A stretch of DNA of 64,000 nucleotides, from contig NZ_CP019640.1 in assembly GCF_001999905.1 (NCBI RefSeq), forward strand, positions 2,522,001 through 2,586,000. Direction: 5' to 3'. Position 1 is the stretch's first letter. Each line of letters starts with the position of its first letter. The notes below the pieces were generated by a model. That model was not told the origin of the DNA and searched no databases. It was given only the letters and a program-made list of their open reading frames with translations. This DNA is from Planococcus lenghuensis. Its GTDB lineage: Bacteria > Bacillota > Bacilli > Bacillales_A > Planococcaceae. This document shows positions 7,341 to 62,501 of the stretch, in pieces. A program made the position numbers and the translations under genes.

Positions 7341-9473
7341 TTAAACAGATGGGACATTAAGAATAGTTAAGTTTCCATTTTCCATCGTCAGCTGGAGAGT
7401 CGCGCCTTCCGTAACTCCGCCCTTGATCAGCTCCCGGGCGACCCGCGTTTCGATTTCACGCTGAATGAACCGCTTTAACGGCCGTGCACCAAATACGGAG
7501 TCTGTTCCGGCTTCAACTACATATCGGATCACACTGTCAGCGACATCCAGGCTGATGCCTTGCTGACTCACCCGCTGTTCAAGATCTTTCATCATTTTCT
7601 TGGCGATCCCATAAAAATGCGCATTGCCGAGTGAATGAAAGATGATGATGTCATCAATCCGGTTCAGCAGTTCAGGGCGGAAATGGTTGCGCAATTCAGC
7701 CATGACTAGATCTTCCGTTTCGTGTTCACTGCTATCAGCAATAAACGCCGATCCAATATTTGATGTCATAATGACTACCGTATTCGAAAAGTTCACCAGT
7801 CTTCCCTGACTGTCCGTAATCCGGCCGTCATCGAGCACTTGCAGCAGGATATTCGCCACATCGGGATGCGCCTTTTCAATTTCATCCAGCAGCACGACAG
7901 AATAAGGATTCCGGCGTACCGCTTCTGTTAGCTGGCCGCCCTCTTCAAACCCAATATAGCCGGGAGGGGCGCCGACGAGCCGGGAAACACTGTGTTTTTC
8001 CATATACTCCGACATATCGATACGGATGAAATGATCTTCGGAATCAAACAGATTCGCAGCAAGTGCTTTAGCAAGTTCTGTCTTCCCAACACCGGTCGGG
8101 CCAAGAAAAATGAATGAACCGATTGGCTTATTCGGATCTTTGATGCCGGCCCTCGCCCGCCATACCGCTTCAGTTACAAGCTGCACGGCATTGTCCTGAC
8201 CAATAACGCGTTCTTTCAGCGTATCATTGAGCCGGAGCAGTTTCTCCCGTTCTCCTTCAATGAGCTTGGTTACCGGGATTCCTGTCCAGCGGGCAACAAT
8301 CCCTGCAATTTCTTCTTCCGTCACTTCCTCGCGCAACAGACGCTGGCCGTCTCCCTGCTGCAGTGCACCTTCCAGTTTCACCAACTCTTTTTCCATTTGC
8401 GGAATCCGGCCGTGTCGGAGTTCAGCAGCCCGGTTCAGGTCATACTTGTTTTCTGCATCTTCCAACTGACGCCGGGCAGTATCCAACTGGCTGCGTTTTT
8501 CCTGAATGGCCTTCAAGGCTCTTTTTTCTTCATCCCAACGGGCCTTCATATCTTCTGTTGTTTCTTTCAGGACATTGATCTCTGCCTGCAGCTGGCTCAG
8601 CCGCTTCTTGCTCGCTTCATCTTTTTCTTTTAACAGAGCCTGTTCTTCGATTTCAAGCTGCATCAGACGCCGGGTTGTTTCATCAAGTTCCTGTGGCATG
8701 GAGTCGATTTCCGTCCGGATGAGTGCACAGGCCTCGTCGATCAGATCGATCGCTTTATCCGGCAGGAACCGCTCTGTGATATACCGGTCCGATAATGCAG
8801 CGGCTGCGATAATCGCCCGGTCATGAATCCGGACACCGTGGTGCAGTTCAAATCGTTCTTTCAAACCGCGGAGAATTGAAACTGAATCCTCCACAGAAGG
8901 CTCACGCACCATCACCTGCTGAAAGCGCCGTTCAAGAGCCGGATCTTTTTCGATATGCATGCGGTATTCATCAAGCGTTGTTGCTCCGATGCAATGCAAT
9001 TCACCGCGTGCCAGCATTGGTTTAAGCATATTGCCTGCATCCATGGCGCCTTCCGTCTTTCCTGCCCCAACAATTGTATGCAATTCATCAATGAACAGAA
9101 TGATGCGGCCGTCCGACTCCTTCACTTCTTTAAGGACGCCTTTCAGCCGTTCCTCGAATTCACCGCGGTATTTAGCGCCTGCGATAAGTGCGCTCATATC
9201 CAGTTCATACAGTATGTGATCTTTCAGACCTTCCGGCACGTCATTCTTTACAATCCGCTGAGCGAGCCCTTCAACGATTGCCGTTTTCCCGACACCCGGT
9301 TCACCGATCAGCACAGGGTTATTCTTCGTTTTCCGGGACAAGATTCGGATCACATTCCGGATTTCCTGATCCCGCCCGATGACTGGGTCCATCTTACCGG
9401 ACTGGGCTTGTTCAATCAGATTACGGCCGAATTGCTCCAATGGTGTTTTTTGTTCTTCATTAATATTCATCAT
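7341..9473 (-). CDS. clpB: ClpB-type disaggregase without an N-terminal domain
   Basis: An AAA+ unfoldase that with DnaK rescues aggregated proteins. It has 710 residues against about 860 for typical ClpB. It opens directly in the first ATPase domain ([18 protein letters not shown], then Walker A GEPGVGKT). A full-length coiled-coil middle domain (about residues 400-520, including [12 protein letters not shown]) and the second ATPase domain ([18 protein letters not shown]) follow. The missing part is the roughly 145-residue Clp-N substrate-binding domain. The long middle domain and lack of an obvious IGF/IGL ClpP loop favour ClpB over ClpC/ClpE. The start ATG 9473 has AGGAGG 9 nt upstream; an ATG at 9470 is next to it. 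A CtsR operator covers its promoter. Confidence 0.88.
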
Positions 9474-42991: not shown

Positions 42992-43548
42992 CACTGGTTA
43001 CCGATAAAATGAAGGGCCGATACGCGCCACTCGCCATCTTCTTTTTCAAATACAACAACTTGTCTGCCCGTCTGCTCGATCGTGTTATCCGTTTCTGCAT
43101 CAACCATCGTAACATCAATAACAGCGAATACTTCCGCCCGATCTTCTTCGTACTTCACAATTGTCATATCACTCGGTTCATATGTTGTTTCATACTGTTC
43201 AAATGTATCCAGCAGCAACTCTTTATCCGCTTCCCGGTCAAATCCTTCCGGGTCATCGGCGAGTACGTTCATGAACGCATCAATATCTTCAGCATTGAAG
43301 GCGTTAATGTATGCGTTATAAGCTTCAAGAAGTACTACTTCTTCTCCTGCCGGCACATCCGCGGCAATCGGTGTCCCGTCTTCATCGAGCGTAAACCCGA
43401 CCGTATCATCTTCCACGCCGTGACCTATGGCATCATTTGTATTTTCATACCCGGCTTCAGCTGTATCTGCATTCTGTGTTTCTTCATCTGCTGAACAGCC
43501 GGCTAATAAACCCATTGCGCCTGCAGCAAGCAACCATTTTTTCATCAT
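42991..43548 (-). CDS. Acidic lipoprotein with an NTF2/SnoaL-like domain
   Basis: A 185-residue exported lipoprotein (lipobox LLAGC at residue about 18), an acidic spacer, then an alpha+beta domain from about residue 75. The domain pattern (AYNAYINAFNAEDIDAFMNVL; ending EKEDGEWRVSALHFIG) fits the NTF2-like/DUF4440 fold, usually ligand binding without fixed catalysis. ATG 43548 has AGGAGGAATGC nearby. Function unknown. The 17-copy repeat array lies upstream of it. Confidence 0.72.
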   Translation of the reverse strand: MMKKWLLAAGAMGLLAGCSADEETQNADTAEAGYENTNDAIGHGVEDDTVGFTLDEDGTPIAADVPAGEEVVLLEAYNAYINAFNAEDIDAFMNVLADDPEGFDREADKELLLDTFEQYETTYEPSDMTIVKYEEDRAEVFAVIDVTMVDAETDNTIEQTGRQVVVFEKEDGEWRVSALHFIGNQ

Positions 43549-43650
43549 GCATTCCTCCTGCGGTTATTTTTGCACAACCGGAGCCCCTATTCAACTTGCA
43601 TGCGGCTGGAATATGCAATGTGTGGCAGGATTGTGGCGCAGTTTGGGTAT

Positions 43651-43990
43651 GTTACTTGCGAATTTTTCACAGTTACTTGCGAATTTTTCACAGTTACTTG
43701 CGAATTTTTCACAGTTACTTGCGAAAGCGGCTTCGTTTCTTGCGAATTGGAAAACACTTGCGATACTCCCCCGGTTACTTGCGAATGCGCCGGATTTACT
43801 TGCGAAAACGGCTTCGTTTCTTGCGAATTGGAAAACACTTGCGATACTCCCCCGGTTACTTGCGAACATGCCGCATTTACTTGCGAAAACAGCTCAATTT
43901 CTTGCGAATCGGAAAACACTTGCGAAATTCCCCCCGGTTACTTGCGAACACAGTACATTTACTTGCAAATGCAGCTCAGTTTCTTGCAGG
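43651..43990. repeat. Array of 17 CTTGCGA motifs at two-helical-turn spacing
   Basis: CTTGCGA (last two CTTGCAA and CTTGCAG) begins at 43655, 43676, 43697, 43718, 43739, 43757, 43778, 43799, 43820, 43838, 43859, 43880, 43901, 43919, 43941, 43962 and 43983. Spacings are 21 bp with an 18-bp step after every fourth, giving an 81-bp superunit. All copies have the same orientation. Linkers are partly conserved (AATTTTTCACAGTTA; GAATTGGAAAACA; CTCCCCCGGTTA). The array fills the gap between the NERD gene stop and the lipoprotein gene. Because spacings are multiples of three, several frames stay open, but none has a ribosome site. Confidence 0.9.
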
Positions 43991-43991
43991 T

Positions 43992-44924
43992 TCATCTTTT
44001 CAATAAATACTTACTATCCCTGAATGTTCCGATGCGTTCCAGATCCATGCTCCGCAATAATCTCCCTGCTGCATGCACACTCGTTAATCCCAGCATTTCC
44101 CGCGCGTCCCGGTTTGTTATCGGTTCCCCTGTAATCAGCAGCCAATCCCGCACAGTCCGTTCGTGCGCAGCTTTCTCTTTTGCTCCGCATCCGCAAATCC
44201 AGCAGCCATGCAACCGCTTCATGCCAAGCCGGCCGCACGCATTACACCACACACCTGTTTTCATCCTTGAAATGGGAAACCTCTTATCCAAGTGAAACGG
44301 CGGATGCACAAAAGGCCGATGGAACCTGATTAGCTCATCTGCAATTTTTTGCATTTCAGCTGGATGCATCATCCAGGCTTCTTCCGCCAGACGACTCATA
44401 AAAAGGGGTAGCTGGTGGGAGAATAACACAACCTGCGAAGATGGAATATTTTCCGGAATTTGTTTCGCATAGGAAAACACGAGGATGGACCGGAGCGGCA
44501 CAATGAGTTTATGGCGCATGAGCCATTCCTCGAAGAGCCACGAATGTGTTTCCATTTGCTCGAGCGGGCTCTTTATGCCGGCTCTTGAACCATCTTCTTT
44601 TAACTGAACCGCCTGTTGTGGATTTTGTCTGATCTGCGTGCGGCCACCCAGGTTTTTCACTTCAAATACATAGATGCACCACGGCGTAATCATGACGGAG
44701 TCCAGCTGGAACGGAAATACAGATTCCAGCGATACATCATGCAAAATCAGATGCGGAAACTTCGGCTCACACTGCTCCATGTAATAATCGAACCGTTCTT
44801 CCCCACCCACACCGGCGCAGACACTCTGGTACTCTTTTTCGAGAGCATCGCTTCCAGGAAATCTGCGCATCAGCACTTCCAGCCGTTCTTTATCCGCCGG
44901 CTCACCTCTCATCTTTACAAGCAA
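43992..44924 (-). CDS. NERD-domain protein with zinc ribbon and winged-helix tail
   Basis: About 310 residues. The N-terminal nuclease-related domain (about 35-150) contains EKEYQSVCAGVGGEERFDYY, then LDSVMITPWCIYVFEVKNLGG-type core residues (D, E-x-K). The middle is alpha-helical. A zinc ribbon near residue 230-255 (WCNAC, CWICGCG) and a winged-helix-like C-terminus follow. The start is TTG 44924 by alignment with NERD N-termini, with GAGGGAGG just upstream; ATG 44912 and ATG 44981 are alternatives. DNA processing is likely but unproven. The CTTGCGA array begins at its 3' end. Confidence 0.78.
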   Translation of the reverse strand: MLVKMRGEPADKERLEVLMRRFPGSDALEKEYQSVCAGVGGEERFDYYMEQCEPKFPHLILHDVSLESVFPFQLDSVMITPWCIYVFEVKNLGGRTQIRQNPQQAVQLKEDGSRAGIKSPLEQMETHSWLFEEWLMRHKLIVPLRSILVFSYAKQIPENIPSSQVVLFSHQLPLFMSRLAEEAWMMHPAEMQKIADELIRFHRPFVHPPFHLDKRFPISRMKTGVWCNACGRLGMKRLHGCWICGCGAKEKAAHERTVRDWLLITGEPITNRDAREMLGLTSVHAAGRLLRSMDLERIGTFRDSKYLLKR

Positions 44925-57848: not shown

Positions 57849-59255
57849 TTATTCAGGCTGGACAGTATCCGGTGTATAATCGTCTGACTGTTGTTTCGTT
57901 ATCGTAAAACCGGTCAGTCCGTAGATGATGGAAATGAGCGGCACAGTGTAATTGAAGACCGCAAACGCCGCATATTCAAACGCACTGACACCAAGTGTTC
58001 CGAGAATAAAGACACCACATGTATTCCAAGCAAAGAAAACAGAAGTCAATGTCCCGCCGTCTTCAAGGGCGCGGGATAAGTTTTTAGAGGCCAAGTTCTT
58101 TTCCTTGTACGAACTCGCATACATCCGGGAGGGGACTACGATCGAAATGTACTGCTCGGCGCACATAGCATTCGTTGCAGTCGCTGATAACACAGTGGAA
58201 GCAACAAGCCGGCCGCCGGTTTTGGCCATTTTCAAAATCTGGGCCATGATTGCCTTCAGCATTCCGGTATATTCAAGAATACCGCCAAACGACATTGCCA
58301 CGAGAATCATGGAAACGGTATACATCATTGAATCGAGGCCGCCCCGATTGAACAGATCATCCACGAGAATGTTACCTGTTTCAATAACATATCCGCCCTG
58401 CAGAACACCGACCGCTTCCGAAAGCGATCCACCCTGCACGAAGATCTGCGCAACAAAACCAAGGAGCACACCGACCAACAATGCCGGGATGGCAGGAACT
58501 TTAAAACCGACCATTACGAAAACAGCCAGCGGAATCAGGAGCAGCCATGGCGAAATAACGAAGCTGTCCTGCAATACAGCCATCGTCGTTGCGATATCTG
58601 CTGTGTCAGTACCTGCAGCTGAAAAATCCCGGCCCAAAAACCAGAAAACAGCGAGCGCAATGATGAAACCAGGCACCGTTGTCCACCACATATGCTTAAT
58701 GTGAACGAATAAATCCGTACCGGTCAACCCGGCTGCTAAATTGGTCGTATCTGAAAGCGGTGACATTTTATCCCCAAAATAAGATCCGGAGATGACCGCT
58801 CCCGCAATCATCGCAGGAGGAATTCCCATGCTGAGTCCAATGCCCATTCCGGCAACTCCGATTGTCCCCATCGTTGACCAGGAGCTTCCAATGGCCAGCG
58901 AAACCACTGCACAAATTACAGCGATTGACACAAGAAAGAGGGCCGGTGTTAAAATATTCAGCCCATACAGGATCATGGTAGCCACTACACCGCTTCCGAT
59001 CCACGAGCCGATAATAAGACCGATTAAGATAATGATGATGATGGCCGGCAAAGCAAGCCGGATGCCTTTGTACATCGCTTCTTCAATGTCTTCCCATTTA
59101 CTTCCGGACCGCCAGGCAACCAGCGCTGCAACAGCCGTACCGAACAGAAGCGGCATATGTGGCCCCTGTTCCAGGTATACGATGGTGATGAGCATAGCTG
59201 CAATCATTGCAATCAGCGGCACAATCGCCCACCAGAAAGATATCCGATTTTCCAT
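57849..59255 (-). CDS. mleN: NhaC-family antiporter, MleN type (malate/lactate, H+/Na+)
   Basis: 468 residues, equal to B. subtilis MleN, with about eleven membrane helices. The NhaC motifs are present: SSWSTMGTIGVAGMGIG, SGSYFGDKMSPLSDTTNLAAG, and FAWNTCGVFILGTLG. Expected to exchange malate for lactate coupled to proton and sodium movement. mleA is its metabolic partner. A promoter lies upstream (59296-59324) and AAAGGGG precedes the ATG. Confidence 0.9.
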   Translation of the reverse strand: MENRISFWWAIVPLIAMIAAMLITIVYLEQGPHMPLLFGTAVAALVAWRSGSKWEDIEEAMYKGIRLALPAIIIIILIGLIIGSWIGSGVVATMILYGLNILTPALFLVSIAVICAVVSLAIGSSWSTMGTIGVAGMGIGLSMGIPPAMIAGAVISGSYFGDKMSPLSDTTNLAAGLTGTDLFVHIKHMWWTTVPGFIIALAVFWFLGRDFSAAGTDTADIATTMAVLQDSFVISPWLLLIPLAVFVMVGFKVPAIPALLVGVLLGFVAQIFVQGGSLSEAVGVLQGGYVIETGNILVDDLFNRGGLDSMMYTVSMILVAMSFGGILEYTGMLKAIMAQILKMAKTGGRLVASTVLSATATNAMCAEQYISIVVPSRMYASSYKEKNLASKNLSRALEDGGTLTSVFFAWNTCGVFILGTLGVSAFEYAAFAVFNYTVPLISIIYGLTGFTITKQQSDDYTPDTVQPE

Positions 59256-59295
59256 TCATGTTCCCCTTTTCGTCTATTTTTAATAAAAACCTGCC

Positions 59296-59324
59296 ATTTT
59301 AATATTCTCTCCATATTCCGACAA
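59296..59324 (-). promoter_or_regulatory. mleN promoter
   Basis: On the minus strand TTGTCG (59319-59324), a 17-bp spacer and TAAAAT (59296-59301). Confidence 0.65.
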
Positions 59325-59448
59325 GAAATCAAGCCTATTTTTTATACAGTACTGAATATTTAATTAGATACCAACGGACTACAAGATCGAACGAACTAGT
59401 TTGATTTCGAGACTTTCATACGCAAAAAGTTTCATTTTAGGAATTTTC

Positions 59449-59489
59449 ACAAAAAACGTTAATTCATTTTTTGTAAAAAGTGGTAGTAT
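59449..59489 (+). promoter_or_regulatory. Promoter and inverted repeat upstream of the RRNPP regulator
   Basis: ACAAAAAA (59449-59456) and TTTTTTGT (59467-59474) form an 8-bp inverted repeat with a 10-bp gap. An extended -10 TGGTAGTAT (59481-59489) follows. The repeat covers the -35 position, a natural place for autoregulation. The rest of 59325-59643 is AT-rich leader with no separate gene; 59610-59617 can pair with the regulator's ribosome site. Confidence 0.5.
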
Positions 59490-59643
59490 GAAAAATAGAA
59501 AACTCTTCGCTGAAACGGAGGCGGATCTCATCGTATTAGGCAGTCGTTTAACCACGTCGGTTACAAAACCATCCGGACGTGTCCTGAATGGAAAACCCAG
59601 AATTGCCAGCTTCCTCCCCGCCGGTCCTGAAAGGAGAAGTCGA

Positions 59644-60933
59644 ATGGAAACTGGAGCCCGCATCAAATATCATCGAATAAAACAGCAGCTGGAACTGAGC
59701 GACCTGGCAGCAGACCTTCTGCTTCCAGCTGAGCTAAAAAAAATCGAGTTAGGCGAAATTACCCCTTCACCTGAAGTATTAAAAGCGTTATGTGAAAAAC
59801 TTAAAATCCCGTTAAATCCAATTGAAAATCCGATTGGACAAGAATTGATCGAGCAATTCAAGGAAATGCTGCTGCATCCGCAAGAACGAATCCGGATCAG
59901 AGAGCATTACTATTTCATTTTGCAGCACCCTCTGCTCAACATTGATGAAGAAGTAGAGCTGGAATATAGCATTCAATTGATTCGTTTCTTCGTCATCACA
60001 GGAGACTTAGATGGCGCTGGAGAAAAGATTCAAGAACTAGAAAAATTCAAAGAATTTATGAACCAAGAGCAGTACTATCTATTCCATAAATATTGCGGGA
60101 ACCATAATTACATGATAAAGAATTTTGATGAAGCGCTGAATTTATACTTACTTGCAGAAAAAATCGCTCCATCTTCTGTATTACCAACTGAATGTGGTGA
60201 CCTGTATTATTCTATAGCTATATCTGCTGCACAGTTGCACAAAAATGAAGTAGCTGATAAATATTCTCGAATGGCACTTGCTATCTATGAAGAAGAATTC
60301 GTACCTAAACGTATCGTTGAGTGTCATATTAACCTTGGTATTACGCAGCAGCGTTTAAAAAATTTCAAAGCATCACTTGACCATTTAAAAATCGCTTTAA
60401 AAATCGGCAAAAAGTTGAATATTAATAATTTACTATATATTTCTGAGTTTAATTGTAGTATTTTCTACTACGCCCACCGAGATTTCAACTCTTCAATTCA
60501 TCACATGGAAAATTGCCTCAACTATATACCTGATGAATATATTGCTGATAAATTGGCCGCGTACTGTTTACTTGTAAAATGCTGTTTCGAGAAACAAGAT
60601 TATATAGGACTTCAGAAATGGATGAAGACAGGAAACAATTTAGTAATCGATAATAATATTGATCTTAACTCTCCAACTAATCAAAAGTTTAGCGAAGCCT
60701 ATTACGAATTCCGGTGTCTACAAAATCTCTATGAAGAAAATTACACTGCATTCGAAAAAGATGCGCTAAAAAGCCTAATTCCGGTATTAGAAACCGATAA
60801 AAATTTTCACGATCTGGCATATTATTATGGACATTTGGGTAATGTATACTTGAAATTAGGAAAATTCAAGAAGTCTGCTATAATGCTAAGTGAGGCTCAA
60901 GAAGCTCTTAAAAAATTCAATAGTTTTCATTGA
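59644..60933 (+). CDS. RRNPP-type quorum-sensing regulator (XRE HTH plus TPR)
   Basis: 429 residues. N-terminal XRE helix-turn-helix (about 1-60: ARIKYHRIKQQLELSDLA, LKKIELGEITPSPEVLKALC), then about 370 all-helical residues. These show TPR-like units (YCGNHNYMIKNFDEALNLYL; INLGITQQRLKNFKASLDHL; YYGHLGNVYLKLGKFKKSAI). This layout is that of PlcR, NprR, Rgg and AimR-like receptors, which bind imported peptides and change DNA binding. ATG 59644 has AAAGGAG 7 nt upstream; the in-frame stretch from 59401 lacks a site. The gene is AT-rich against its surroundings, suggesting acquisition. A peptide precursor follows 12 bp later. Not assigned to a named subfamily. Confidence 0.88.
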   Translation: METGARIKYHRIKQQLELSDLAADLLLPAELKKIELGEITPSPEVLKALCEKLKIPLNPIENPIGQELIEQFKEMLLHPQERIRIREHYYFILQHPLLNIDEEVELEYSIQLIRFFVITGDLDGAGEKIQELEKFKEFMNQEQYYLFHKYCGNHNYMIKNFDEALNLYLLAEKIAPSSVLPTECGDLYYSIAISAAQLHKNEVADKYSRMALAIYEEEFVPKRIVECHINLGITQQRLKNFKASLDHLKIALKIGKKLNINNLLYISEFNCSIFYYAHRDFNSSIHHMENCLNYIPDEYIADKLAAYCLLVKCCFEKQDYIGLQKWMKTGNNLVIDNNIDLNSPTNQKFSEAYYEFRCLQNLYEENYTAFEKDALKSLIPVLETDKNFHDLAYYYGHLGNVYLKLGKFKKSAIMLSEAQEALKKFNSFH

Positions 60934-60945
60934 AGGAGGATTCTT

Positions 60946-61284
60946 ATGAGAAAAGCAAGCATTTTTGTTCTACTAACAGGTGTTTTTTTTACCAGTTTAG
61001 TTTCTCACCCTAGCACACTTGATAGCACTAATACAATTGCAGCTCGGGAGATTATCCCGGAGCCTTGGAGCTCGAAGCATGAAATCGCAGCTCGGGAAAT
61101 CATTCCGGAACCTTGGAGCCCGAAGTATGAAATCGCAGCTCGGGAAATCATTCCGGAACCTTGGAGCCCGAAGTATGAAATCGCAGCTCGGGAAATCATT
61201 CCGGAACCTTGGAGCCCGAAGTATGAAATCGCAGCTCGAGAGATTATCCCAGAACCTTGGAGCTCTAAATACACATCGGTGTAG
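60946..61284 (+). CDS. Candidate multicopy peptide pheromone precursor (five tandem 16-residue repeats)
   Basis: 112 residues. The N-terminus MRKASIFVLLTGVFFTSLV looks like a Sec export signal. A short spacer (to residue 30) is followed by five head-to-tail 16-residue units: IAAREIIPEPWSSKHE, three copies of IAAREIIPEPWSPKYE and IAAREIIPEPWSSKYT, then SV. IAAREIIPEPWS is invariant. GGAGG lies just after the regulator stop, and the start is 12 bp downstream, so translation is probably coupled. The natural reading is a secreted precursor cut into up to five signals read by the upstream regulator. No bacteriocin or enzyme motif. Function inferred. Confidence 0.8.
   Translation: MRKASIFVLLTGVFFTSLVSHPSTLDSTNTIAAREIIPEPWSSKHEIAAREIIPEPWSPKYEIAAREIIPEPWSPKYEIAAREIIPEPWSPKYEIAAREIIPEPWSSKYTSV
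61036..61275 (+). repeat. Five 48-bp tandem repeats inside the precursor gene
   Basis: Units at 61036-61083, 61084-61131, 61132-61179, 61180-61227 and 61228-61275. Units 2-4 are identical over 48 bp. Units 1 and 5 differ from them mostly at third codon positions. Confidence 0.98.
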
Positions 61285-61300
61285 AGCATAACCTTACATA

Positions 61301-61336
61301 AAGAGCACTGTCAGTATTCGTGACAGTGCTCTTTTA
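61301..61336 (+). terminator. Terminator of the regulator-pheromone operon
   Basis: AAGAGCACTGTCA / TGACAGTGCTCTT with a 7-nt loop and TT-rich tail. Confidence 0.88.
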
Positions 61337-61449
61337 ATATCCACTTATCCTTAACTGCAATTGCTGGCTCGTAGGTTTTCGGAACAGGCTAAGCGACTGC
61401 TTTGCACCTTGCCTAAAAAATGAGGCATAACTGATTCCTACCTTTACAG

Positions 61450-61728
61450 CTACCGGTTAATCGGATCATGATAATATATGTATGCTAAAATGTCTTCCCC
61501 TTCTGCGGATTGCCATTCCTTCCACTGCTCTGATTCTTCATCAAAATATTCAAATCCAAAAATGTAATTGGATTTACGGTCCTGCCGTTCGAATTCCATG
61601 ATGAAAATTTTAATTACTTTTGCCGCCGTTTCGACTGAATCGACCTCATAGTCCCGGAAATGCTCTTTTCGGTTATCCAAGAAAACAGCAAACCAGACAC
61701 GGTATTTTCCTCCCGCTTCTTTTCGCAT
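61450..61728 (-). CDS. Hypothetical protein (92 aa)
   Basis: I do not recognise the family. It is a soluble, charged protein rich in aromatics (KYRVWFAVFLDNRKEHFRDYE; FGFEYFDEESEQWKEW), probably a small alpha/beta fold. No signal peptide or membrane helix. A purine-rich ribosome site (GGGGAGGGCTGGAGG) precedes ATG 61728. It is 52 bp downstream of the glycosyltransferase-like gene on the same strand. Confidence 0.55.
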   Translation of the reverse strand: MRKEAGGKYRVWFAVFLDNRKEHFRDYEVDSVETAAKVIKIFIMEFERQDRKSNYIFGFEYFDEESEQWKEWQSAEGEDILAYIYYHDPINR

Positions 61729-61780
61729 GACCTCCAGCCCTCCCCTTTTTTACGTGGCCAGTCAGCCGCCAATCGCAAAA

Positions 61781-62416
61781 TCAGATCCCGCATAGTTCCA
61801 TTGCCCGTCGCCGGCCGTTGCCTCCGAACTGCTTTCTGATATCCGGGTGCTTCATAAACCACTCGCAATAATCGGCAATCATGTCAGCAGCATTTGCCGG
61901 CACAACCATCCCGGCCGGCCCATGTTTATCACCTGCTTTTCCAAACAGCAATTCCACAGCCTCGGCCTCTCCCACCGCAATCCATGGCACGCCTTCAGCC
62001 ATTCCTTTTAATATACTTAATGGATACTTGTTTGCCTTTCCCATCCACAGGCATACATCCAATTTTTGAAAATGGGTGCCTCCTTCTGCTGTTACCCCCA
62101 ATTCAACAACTTGCTGCAATTGCTGGCAGTCTTTCTCTTTCTGAAGCCAGCTACTTACCTCTGCTGTCATCCCTTCCTCCAACACTACAATTAACTGGAA
62201 CCGGCACTGTCTGGACAACAGAATTCGAGCGACTTTAAAGATAGTCAGAATAGCATCGGTTTCTAACCGGTCATGAACCGATCCGATCCTGAACCGGTTA
62301 ACCTGCTGCTCAACGCCGGCCTTGCCACTTTCTACGACAATGGATTGAAGCAGTTGATCCGGCGGTTTAATCATTTCCGGAATATTACCTTTTCCATTGA
62401 TCACTGCAGCTGCCAT
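61781..62416 (-). CDS. Stand-alone C-terminal glycosyltransferase (GT-B, family 1/4-like) domain
   Basis: 211 residues matching only the nucleotide-sugar-binding half of GT-B enzymes: RFRIGSVHDRLETDAI (usually VGRL..KG), RFQLIVVLEEG, then LDVCLWMGKANKYPLSILKG, where the E-x7-E motif has changed (normally REGFPLSLLEAM). It ends MVVPANAADMIADYCEW and a RKQFGGNGRRRA tail. The acceptor-binding N-domain is absent and only 85 bp separate it from the next gene. It is either a degenerate fragment or a partner subunit. Confidence 0.6.
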   Translation of the reverse strand: MAAAVINGKGNIPEMIKPPDQLLQSIVVESGKAGVEQQVNRFRIGSVHDRLETDAILTIFKVARILLSRQCRFQLIVVLEEGMTAEVSSWLQKEKDCQQLQQVVELGVTAEGGTHFQKLDVCLWMGKANKYPLSILKGMAEGVPWIAVGEAEAVELLFGKAGDKHGPAGMVVPANAADMIADYCEWFMKHPDIRKQFGGNGRRRAMELCGI

Positions 62417-62501
62417 AATTACCAGCCCTTTCCGCTTAGATGAAATTATAAAAACCTGCAGTCCGCCCGATGATCAATGGCATATAAATTATTCCGCCTT
62501 T

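Follow-up and report, generated by a model that had tools for sequence, protein, structure and literature searches.

Two adjacent genes in the window (the whole 64,000-nt stretch analysed here) encode a helix-turn-helix regulator and a short repetitive protein, which raises the question of whether they form a peptide signalling system and whether the number of repeats matters to it. The first gene (P0001, 59644..60933 from ATG to stop, + strand) encodes an RRNPP-type receptor of 429 residues when read from the ATG at 59644, and the second (P0002, 60946..61284, + strand) a 112-residue putative multi-copy pheromone precursor, whose ATG lies 12 nt beyond the receptor stop and is preceded by the ribosome-binding site aaggagg (60933..60939, + strand). 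Downstream of the precursor gene is a hairpin resembling an intrinsic terminator (61300..61334, + strand), with a perfect 14-bp stem and a folding energy of -22.1 kcal/mol (z -6.6; none of 200 shuffles was equally stable). A consensus scan listed no terminator, probably because its rule requires a T run outside the stem; the same scan reported 13 promoter-like sites against 6.4 expected, and an Rfam scan of positions 58500-62500 gave no match up to an E-value of 1.

A reading made from the letters of the window (hereafter the sequence-only reading) had described this layout as an HTH and TPR regulator followed after 12 nt by a 112-residue protein with five 16-residue units and one terminator, and the open reading frames, Pfam, a tandem-repeat scan and the hairpin agree with it. 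Its assignment of an RRNPP-type receptor beside a multi-copy, export-like precursor is likewise supported by the HTH and TPR domains, the modelled superhelix, the array and the export-like starts of 49 of 50 related precursors. We therefore consider it very probable that the locus is a chromosomal RRNPP-type quorum-sensing pair. Of seven window genes searched against Pfam, two had no match; the others were a YflT stress protein, a Na+/H+ antiporter, weak matches to a glycosyltransferase and to MarR, and an SBP_bac_5 protein that lies far from the pair. The neighbourhood is partly conserved: most Planococcus loci have YflT-like stress genes on the upstream side and, on the downstream side, a gene of the 62502/62791 family. 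Among the loci compared the antiporter adjoins the receptor only in the window and in G001, the sister genome that, with the window's own 4.15-Mb genome, made up the two genomes compared for its genus.

Domains and predicted fold of the receptor

The receptor begins with an XRE-type helix-turn-helix (HTH_3, residues 7-58, 59662..59817, + strand; Pfam E-value 2e-5), which the AlphaFold model resolves into helices at residues 3-13, 18-22, 28-35 and 43-52. A TPR superhelix follows at residues of about 63-426 (59830..60921, + strand), delimited by the AlphaFold helices, with best structure matches covering residues 60-429 and a TPR_12 match at 2.6e-12 (Pfam). The model has a pLDDT of 91.6 and a pTM of 0.87, and its superhelix, nearest to RapI and NprR, is what the sequence-only reading had anticipated for the C-terminal part. 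RRNPP receptors are recognised by a length of 250-500 residues with TPRs of the peptide-binding type and by an adjoining propeptide gene; the window protein has 429 residues (472 or 481 if read from an upstream ACG or ATG), and its neighbour lies 12 nt away, an adjacency kept in all 46 Planococcus/Planomicrobium genomes.

Structure comparison with VIA-align gave three tied top matches, RapI (Z 31.5, rmsd 4.1, 351 residues aligned), apo-NprR (30.9, 3.5, 351) and RapJ (30.9, 4.4, 351), so that the NprR-like fold is not specific to NprR. Most peptide-bound Rap and NprR chains scored 28.2-30.9 and the Rap of pLS20 24.7, while LGN was the best chain outside the RRNPP class (24.2); since several true RRNPP chains scored below LGN (RapF-ComA 23.3, RapH-Spo0F 23.2, AimR 19.8 and PlcR 18.5), the fold ranking alone is no proof of class. 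When a profile of 69 receptors was searched against the PDB, NprR (4gpk) matched at an E-value of 1.7e-38 over profile positions 65-414, corresponding to the whole TPR domain, followed by Rap proteins; PlcR matched at 5.3e-9 over positions 2-173. The sole match better than NprR was an engineered consensus TPR protein, matched via its repeats, and NprR is thus the closest natural solved relative of the window receptor by profile.

Four residues, R114, L212, R223 and N270, are invariant in all 69 receptors, and N270 aligns with an NprR asparagine that we take to be a peptide contact. Residue 266, one helical turn from N270, is mostly Thr in 40 orthologues whose core has an acidic residue and is Asp in four sequences with KxPQPW or KHPHPW cores; these four belong to one clade, so the observations are not independent. 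An HTH joined to an NprR-like TPR domain (4gpk at 1.7e-38, apo-NprR at Z 30.9) is one mark of the NprR subfamily and is present here. A second is a DNA-binding tetramer induced by the peptide. A third, the NprX-binding residues R126, W167 and H201 of NprR (available text of PMC4970707), is absent: by hand mapping with an inferred numbering offset they correspond to G120, F161 and Q197. We therefore rejected an NprR orthologue, and the NprR binding mode cannot be assumed for the window receptor. By its modelled fold and its gene layout, the receptor is of RRNPP type and is not an NprR orthologue.

Conservation of the pair and constraint on the array

The N-terminal region of the window precursor (residues 1-30, 60946..61035, + strand) is basic and then hydrophobic, which makes it export-like in sequence and hydropathy; when the 50 precursors of the clade were checked for hydropathy, 49 had a basic residue among their first 20 residues together with a strongly hydrophobic stretch of 12 residues close to the N-terminus. 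Five 16-residue units follow (61036..61275, + strand; protein reading and tandem-repeat scan), each with the core IIPEPW, the first at 61051-61068 and the later ones at 48-nt steps. In DNA the array reads as 4.8 copies of 48 bp with 93% matches, and the units consist of IAAREIIPEPWS followed by SKHE, PKYE (three times) or SKYT. A single-sequence model of the precursor has low confidence (pLDDT 52.8) and says little.

In the family, 110 of 261 genomes contain a receptor relative by six-frame search at an E-value of 1e-10; an order-level search covered the same 261 genomes and added nothing. A contig scan with a single receptor protein as query found no relative, and one with an alignment as query found 37 loci. 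A receptor orthologue (45-53% identity) is present in all 46 Planococcus/Planomicrobium genomes, and a precursor lies directly downstream in each. The receptor is also present in both genomes of the window's genus, with its frame broken in G001. A multi-copy array could be read in 43 of the 46 genomes; in one of the other three (L038) the precursor start is followed by masked bases, and in two (L029 and L036) the contig extends just 140 and 149 nt past the receptor, far enough to show one unit and about two units. The 43 arrays hold 2-14 units, most commonly seven (12 genomes) and then six (eight genomes), with numbers that differ also between close relatives. None is reduced to a single copy, and the two copies counted at L028 are a minimum because its array is split over two contigs. 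Conserved pairing with a varying repeat number, as the sequence-only reading had proposed, is thus what these genomes contain, and neither a repeat protein lacking the regulator nor the reverse arrangement, which it had named as evidence to the contrary, was found in the Planococcus genus.

The core is RVPEPW or RIPEPW in most Planococcus. When the 261 genomes were searched at the DNA level for a pair of PEPW codon blocks spaced by 30-48 nt, 39 had a match, namely the window's genome, 36 of the 46 Planococcus/Planomicrobium genomes and two of another genus; the matches in the latter two appear by eye to be a different short repeat and lie on contigs other than those of the receptor relatives. 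The ten Planococcus/Planomicrobium genomes lacking the pattern have PDPW, PQPW, PHPW or TEPW cores, or cut or masked arrays. For 36 of the 37 genomes formed by the window's and the 36 Planococcus/Planomicrobium genomes, the genome-wide PEPW count equals that of the array beside the receptor (the exception, G089, has its array split over two contigs), and within the Planococcus genus this pattern search found no PEPW array away from the receptor.

Constraint on the core was assessed on internal units only, taken from those precursors that have two or more of them (45 of 50 precursors and 212 of 315 units, drawn from orthologues, second pairs and the window precursor), using 491 within-precursor pairs and equal weight per precursor. 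Within precursors, pN/pS was 0.004 at core positions -2 to +3 and 0.21 in the flanks. Over positions -3 to +3 around the first Pro, pN was 0 at every site but the x of PxPW (0.0042), and pS ranged over 0.11-0.52 (none definable at Trp); between orthologues, pN/pS of the PxPW core was 0.10. The mean 27-nt distance between units was 0.073 within a genome and 0.288 between genomes, indicating that the array recombines, and 179 of 288 units had their strictly closest relative in their own precursor whereas the other 109 did not. Together, the likeness of units within a genome and the nearly frozen core show by sequence comparison that the units are kept alike by homogenisation and the core is kept by selection. 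By this analysis the putative pheromone is approximately R-[VI]-P-E-P-W-[SA] in Planococcus, and approximately I-I-P-E-P-W-S in the window.

Several individual loci depart from this pattern. In G001 (L004, contig C3), the precursor beside the receptor has two VPPPF units, with Phe in place of Trp, and the receptor frame is broken near residue 285, where draft error and decay cannot be separated. At L043 (G106), the six units of the precursor are shifted by one base from the frame set by its ATG. In one Planococcus (L074), a gene at 7702-8313 directly downstream of the precursor appears by eye to encode a membrane zincin-like peptidase, which is possibly a processing enzyme.

A second, divergent pair is present in five Planococcus genomes, its receptors 30-32% identical and its precursors holding 3-6 units with a WPQPWS or HPNPWS core. 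In another genus, a receptor match in G070 (L051) starts at residue 54-55 and is adjoined by a precursor of six YPPPWS units; the HTH part of this receptor may be missing or out of frame. Receptor matches in the family outside g1, Planococcus/Planomicrobium (g12) and G070 were inspected by eye at 16 loci; a short single-copy precursor lies downstream in 15, and the remaining one (L072) has several PLDEVPEIAF-like units. Among 398 genomes sampled from the class, 27 had a receptor match at 1e-30; of the 15 loci that lie outside the family, seven have by eye a single-copy precursor, three a three-copy and one a nine-copy precursor, with none seen at four. The three-copy SEPDHPKIV precursors (L164, L165 and L167, in G446, G429 and G310) all come from a single genus of a different family and adjoin distant RRNPP-type receptors; the nine-copy SDNSPGIKSL precursor adjoins another such receptor in G612 (L173), also outside the family. 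Because multi-copy precursors occur beside such distant receptors, they seem to have arisen more than once. In a quick tree of 69 receptors, limited to the loci retrieved, receptors with PxPW precursors form one clade (53 rows, SH-aLRT 100) with long branches; alignments A1 and A2 exclude G001 because of its broken receptor frame. Eight plasmid records hold distant receptor relatives (23-26% identity), and none was found in phage records or viral contigs.

The region upstream of the receptor ATG

The open reading frame proposed by the sequence-only reading for the regulator stands, but its start at 59644 is in doubt. In all 48 upstream regions compared (G001 included), the receptor frame is free of stops over the 132 nt preceding the ATG, whereas the other frames have a stop in 32-48 of them. 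In the window this frame contains a conserved extension of 43 codons begun by ACG (59515..59643, + strand; stop-free frame and codon-position differences), with an in-frame ATG further upstream at 59488. A GG[AG]GGCG motif lies 130 nt from the receptor ATG in 46 loci, 127 nt in one and 133 nt in one, always in frame, and a non-coding interval just upstream takes eight different lengths in 44 loci. Across 162 close pairs, differences at codon positions 1, 2 and 3 number 393, 332 and 830 in the extension and 341, 111 and 1130 at the receptor start. The last 18 codons of the extension have a pN/pS of 0.53 in frame, 0.90 and 0.99 out of frame, against 0.18 for the receptor, and their low pS (0.27 versus 0.78) indicates that the nucleotides are constrained too. 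The open frame in 48 of 48 loci and the coding-like pattern of change suggest that the true start of the receptor may lie upstream of 59644.

The codon at the head of the extension is GTG in 37 loci, ATG in five, TTG in two and ACG in four, including the window; the four ACG heads argue against a fixed start at this position. A -10-like hexamer 4-8 nt before the head codon is found in 32 of 48 loci, compared with 224 of 960 random places, and is absent in the window. A longer receptor form appears likely; in most Planococcus this long form may begin at a leaderless start and could perhaps exist beside a short form led by a Shine-Dalgarno sequence.

Alignment of the 48 regions also revealed an upstream box, TTTTTTGTAAAAAGTGGTAGTATGA in the window (59467..59491, + strand), a candidate operator or promoter element. 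It aligns with a box, TTTTGAAAATTGATGATATCAT, that precedes the receptor gene in Planococcus. In each of seven Planococcus genomes searched, the best or sole match to the Planococcus box lies upstream of the receptor. No convincing second target was found in these seven genomes, as matches elsewhere had three mismatches, for example, in two species, a match between the genes for EF-Tu and an aminotransferase and, in one species, a match next to a gene for a membrane protein. The consensus structure of the leader RNA is weak (-6.5 kcal/mol over 48 sequences), and several single-sequence folds pair CTCTCCT with the Shine-Dalgarno region.

Proposed signalling, copy number and known systems

As an RRNPP-type pair, the two genes would work as follows. 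The precursor would be exported, and extracellular cleavage would release as many as five short, nearly identical peptides around IIPEPW(S), as the selection on the core suggests. By the pathway known for the family, a peptide would be re-imported by an oligopeptide permease and would then bind the groove of the modelled TPR superhelix of the upstream HTH regulator. Binding would alter the regulator's interaction with DNA, probably first at its own promoter, where the conserved box is found. A peptide switches the regulator on in NprR and PlcR and off in AimR and Rap; we lean slightly towards on rather than off here. Tandem copies would yield more signal per translated precursor, in which case copy number could act as a gain setting.

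One extension of this model, which we regard as possible but doubtful, is a vertically inherited, genus-wide system in which the array is homogenised, copy number (2-14) is an evolvable gain setting and the receptor is made in two forms, a long one from an upstream GTG-type start, possibly leaderless in most Planococcus, and a short one from the Shine-Dalgarno-led ATG. The same pair might instead carry a copy number with no signalling role, the units multiplying by neutral slippage or recombination while one or two are enough, a reading that is also possible but doubtful. The spread from 2 to 14 within one genus, reaching even close relatives, and the recombination evident from the within- and between-genome unit distances are what such drift would produce, but internal units retain the core and not one of the 43 readable arrays has fallen to a single copy.

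Two further explanations dispense with signalling by the repeat protein. It would be a secreted structural or cell-surface protein, merely co-operonic with the regulator, according to one that we find very improbable: an export-like, repetitive protein containing Pro and Trp fits such a role, as does a weak Pfam match to Cornifin (24.9 bits, below the cut-off of 34.8), whereas the strict pairing with an RRNPP-fold receptor, the focusing of selection on 6-7 residues while copy number is free, and the short single-copy counterparts seen by eye downstream of 15 of 16 distant family receptors do not. Multi-core precursors are known among RiPPs, and the gene might accordingly encode a bacteriocin or modified peptide under the regulator's control. 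This reading is more improbable still, since no modification enzyme was found among the Pfam-scanned window neighbours, none was recognised by eye among the ORFs of four Planococcus loci, and the window precursor has no Cys.

The signalling pair that we prefer resembles several described systems. To our knowledge, the window core is unlike the known pheromone sequences, in agreement with the sequence-only reading, which had set it apart from PapR, NprX, Phr, SHP/XIP and arbitrium peptides. NprR-NprX of the Bacillus cereus group likewise has an HTH and TPR receptor with the precursor gene directly downstream (available text of PMC4970707; main text of PMC9765709), and NprR systems also include multi-copy propeptides (PMC9765709, main text). 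The NprX octapeptide SSKPDIVG, however, differs from the IIPEPW/RVPEPW core of the window and Planococcus, and the Planococcus arrays reach 14 copies. In the Rap-Phr systems of phages phi3T and phi105, a TPR receptor is likewise paired with a propeptide that carries multiple pheromones and whose processing has been studied experimentally (PMC11343458, main text), and Rap has the same superhelix fold in VIA-align. In contrast to the window receptor, Rap proteins lack an HTH and act on protein targets; the phi105 propeptide holds two pheromones, that of phi3T has a different duplication, and their sequences differ from the window pair. AloR-AloP of Paenibacillus polymyxa, another genus, combines an HTH-TPR receptor with a downstream exported peptide, and no repeat arrays are seen in its description (PMC7425212, main text), by which, rather than by sequence comparison, we set it apart. 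AimR of the arbitrium system also pairs an HTH-TPR receptor with a small peptide (available text of PMC6536502) and reaches a fold Z of 19.8, but is a phage lysogeny switch, whereas the window receptor has no relative in phage records or viral contigs.

The novelty that the sequence-only reading implied for several copies per precursor is not supported. Up to six copies of one mature peptide are reported in AimR, NprR, PlcR and Rap systems, with repeats in all 17 of the NprR-associated propeptides that were unusually long (PMC9765709, main text), and up to eight copies per propeptide in the main text of PMC11343458, which presents experiments on two duplicated Phr propeptides and gives propeptide size as 50-120 residues; the multi-copy principle is thus already known. 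Its suggestion of an undescribed family fares better: the open-access main texts searched yielded no description of the Planococcus-clade RRNPP pair and no match to words from the core sequence, the papers naming both Planococcus and NprR look unrelated by title and opening of the abstract, and Planococcus is not named in the main text of PMC9765709, PMC11343458, PMC10075063 or PMC7425212. The interesting new parts are the array length, the genus-wide conservation and the copy-number series. Planococcus and its sister genus, for which the literature searched describes no RRNPP system, gain a lineage-wide signalling pair, and the published maximum of eight copies (PMC11343458, main text) rises to 14. 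Forty-three related species with differing copy number and nearly the same core provide a natural series for the question of quorum-sensing gain. RRNPP_detector accepts propeptides of 10-100 residues, the upper limit being a default search setting (PMC10075063, main text); the window precursor, at 112 residues, lies outside it, as would 40 of the 50 precursors, which exceed 100 residues, suggesting that multi-copy systems are hidden from such searches.

Two other features of the window were recorded. At 896-2632, about 57 kb from the pair, is a gene for an extracellular solute-binding protein (SBP_bac_5, Pfam E-value 1.4e-78), of a family of oligopeptide-binding proteins. At 43427-44295, the ORFs overlap and contain short repeats on both frames, suggesting that the DNA there is tandemly repeated.
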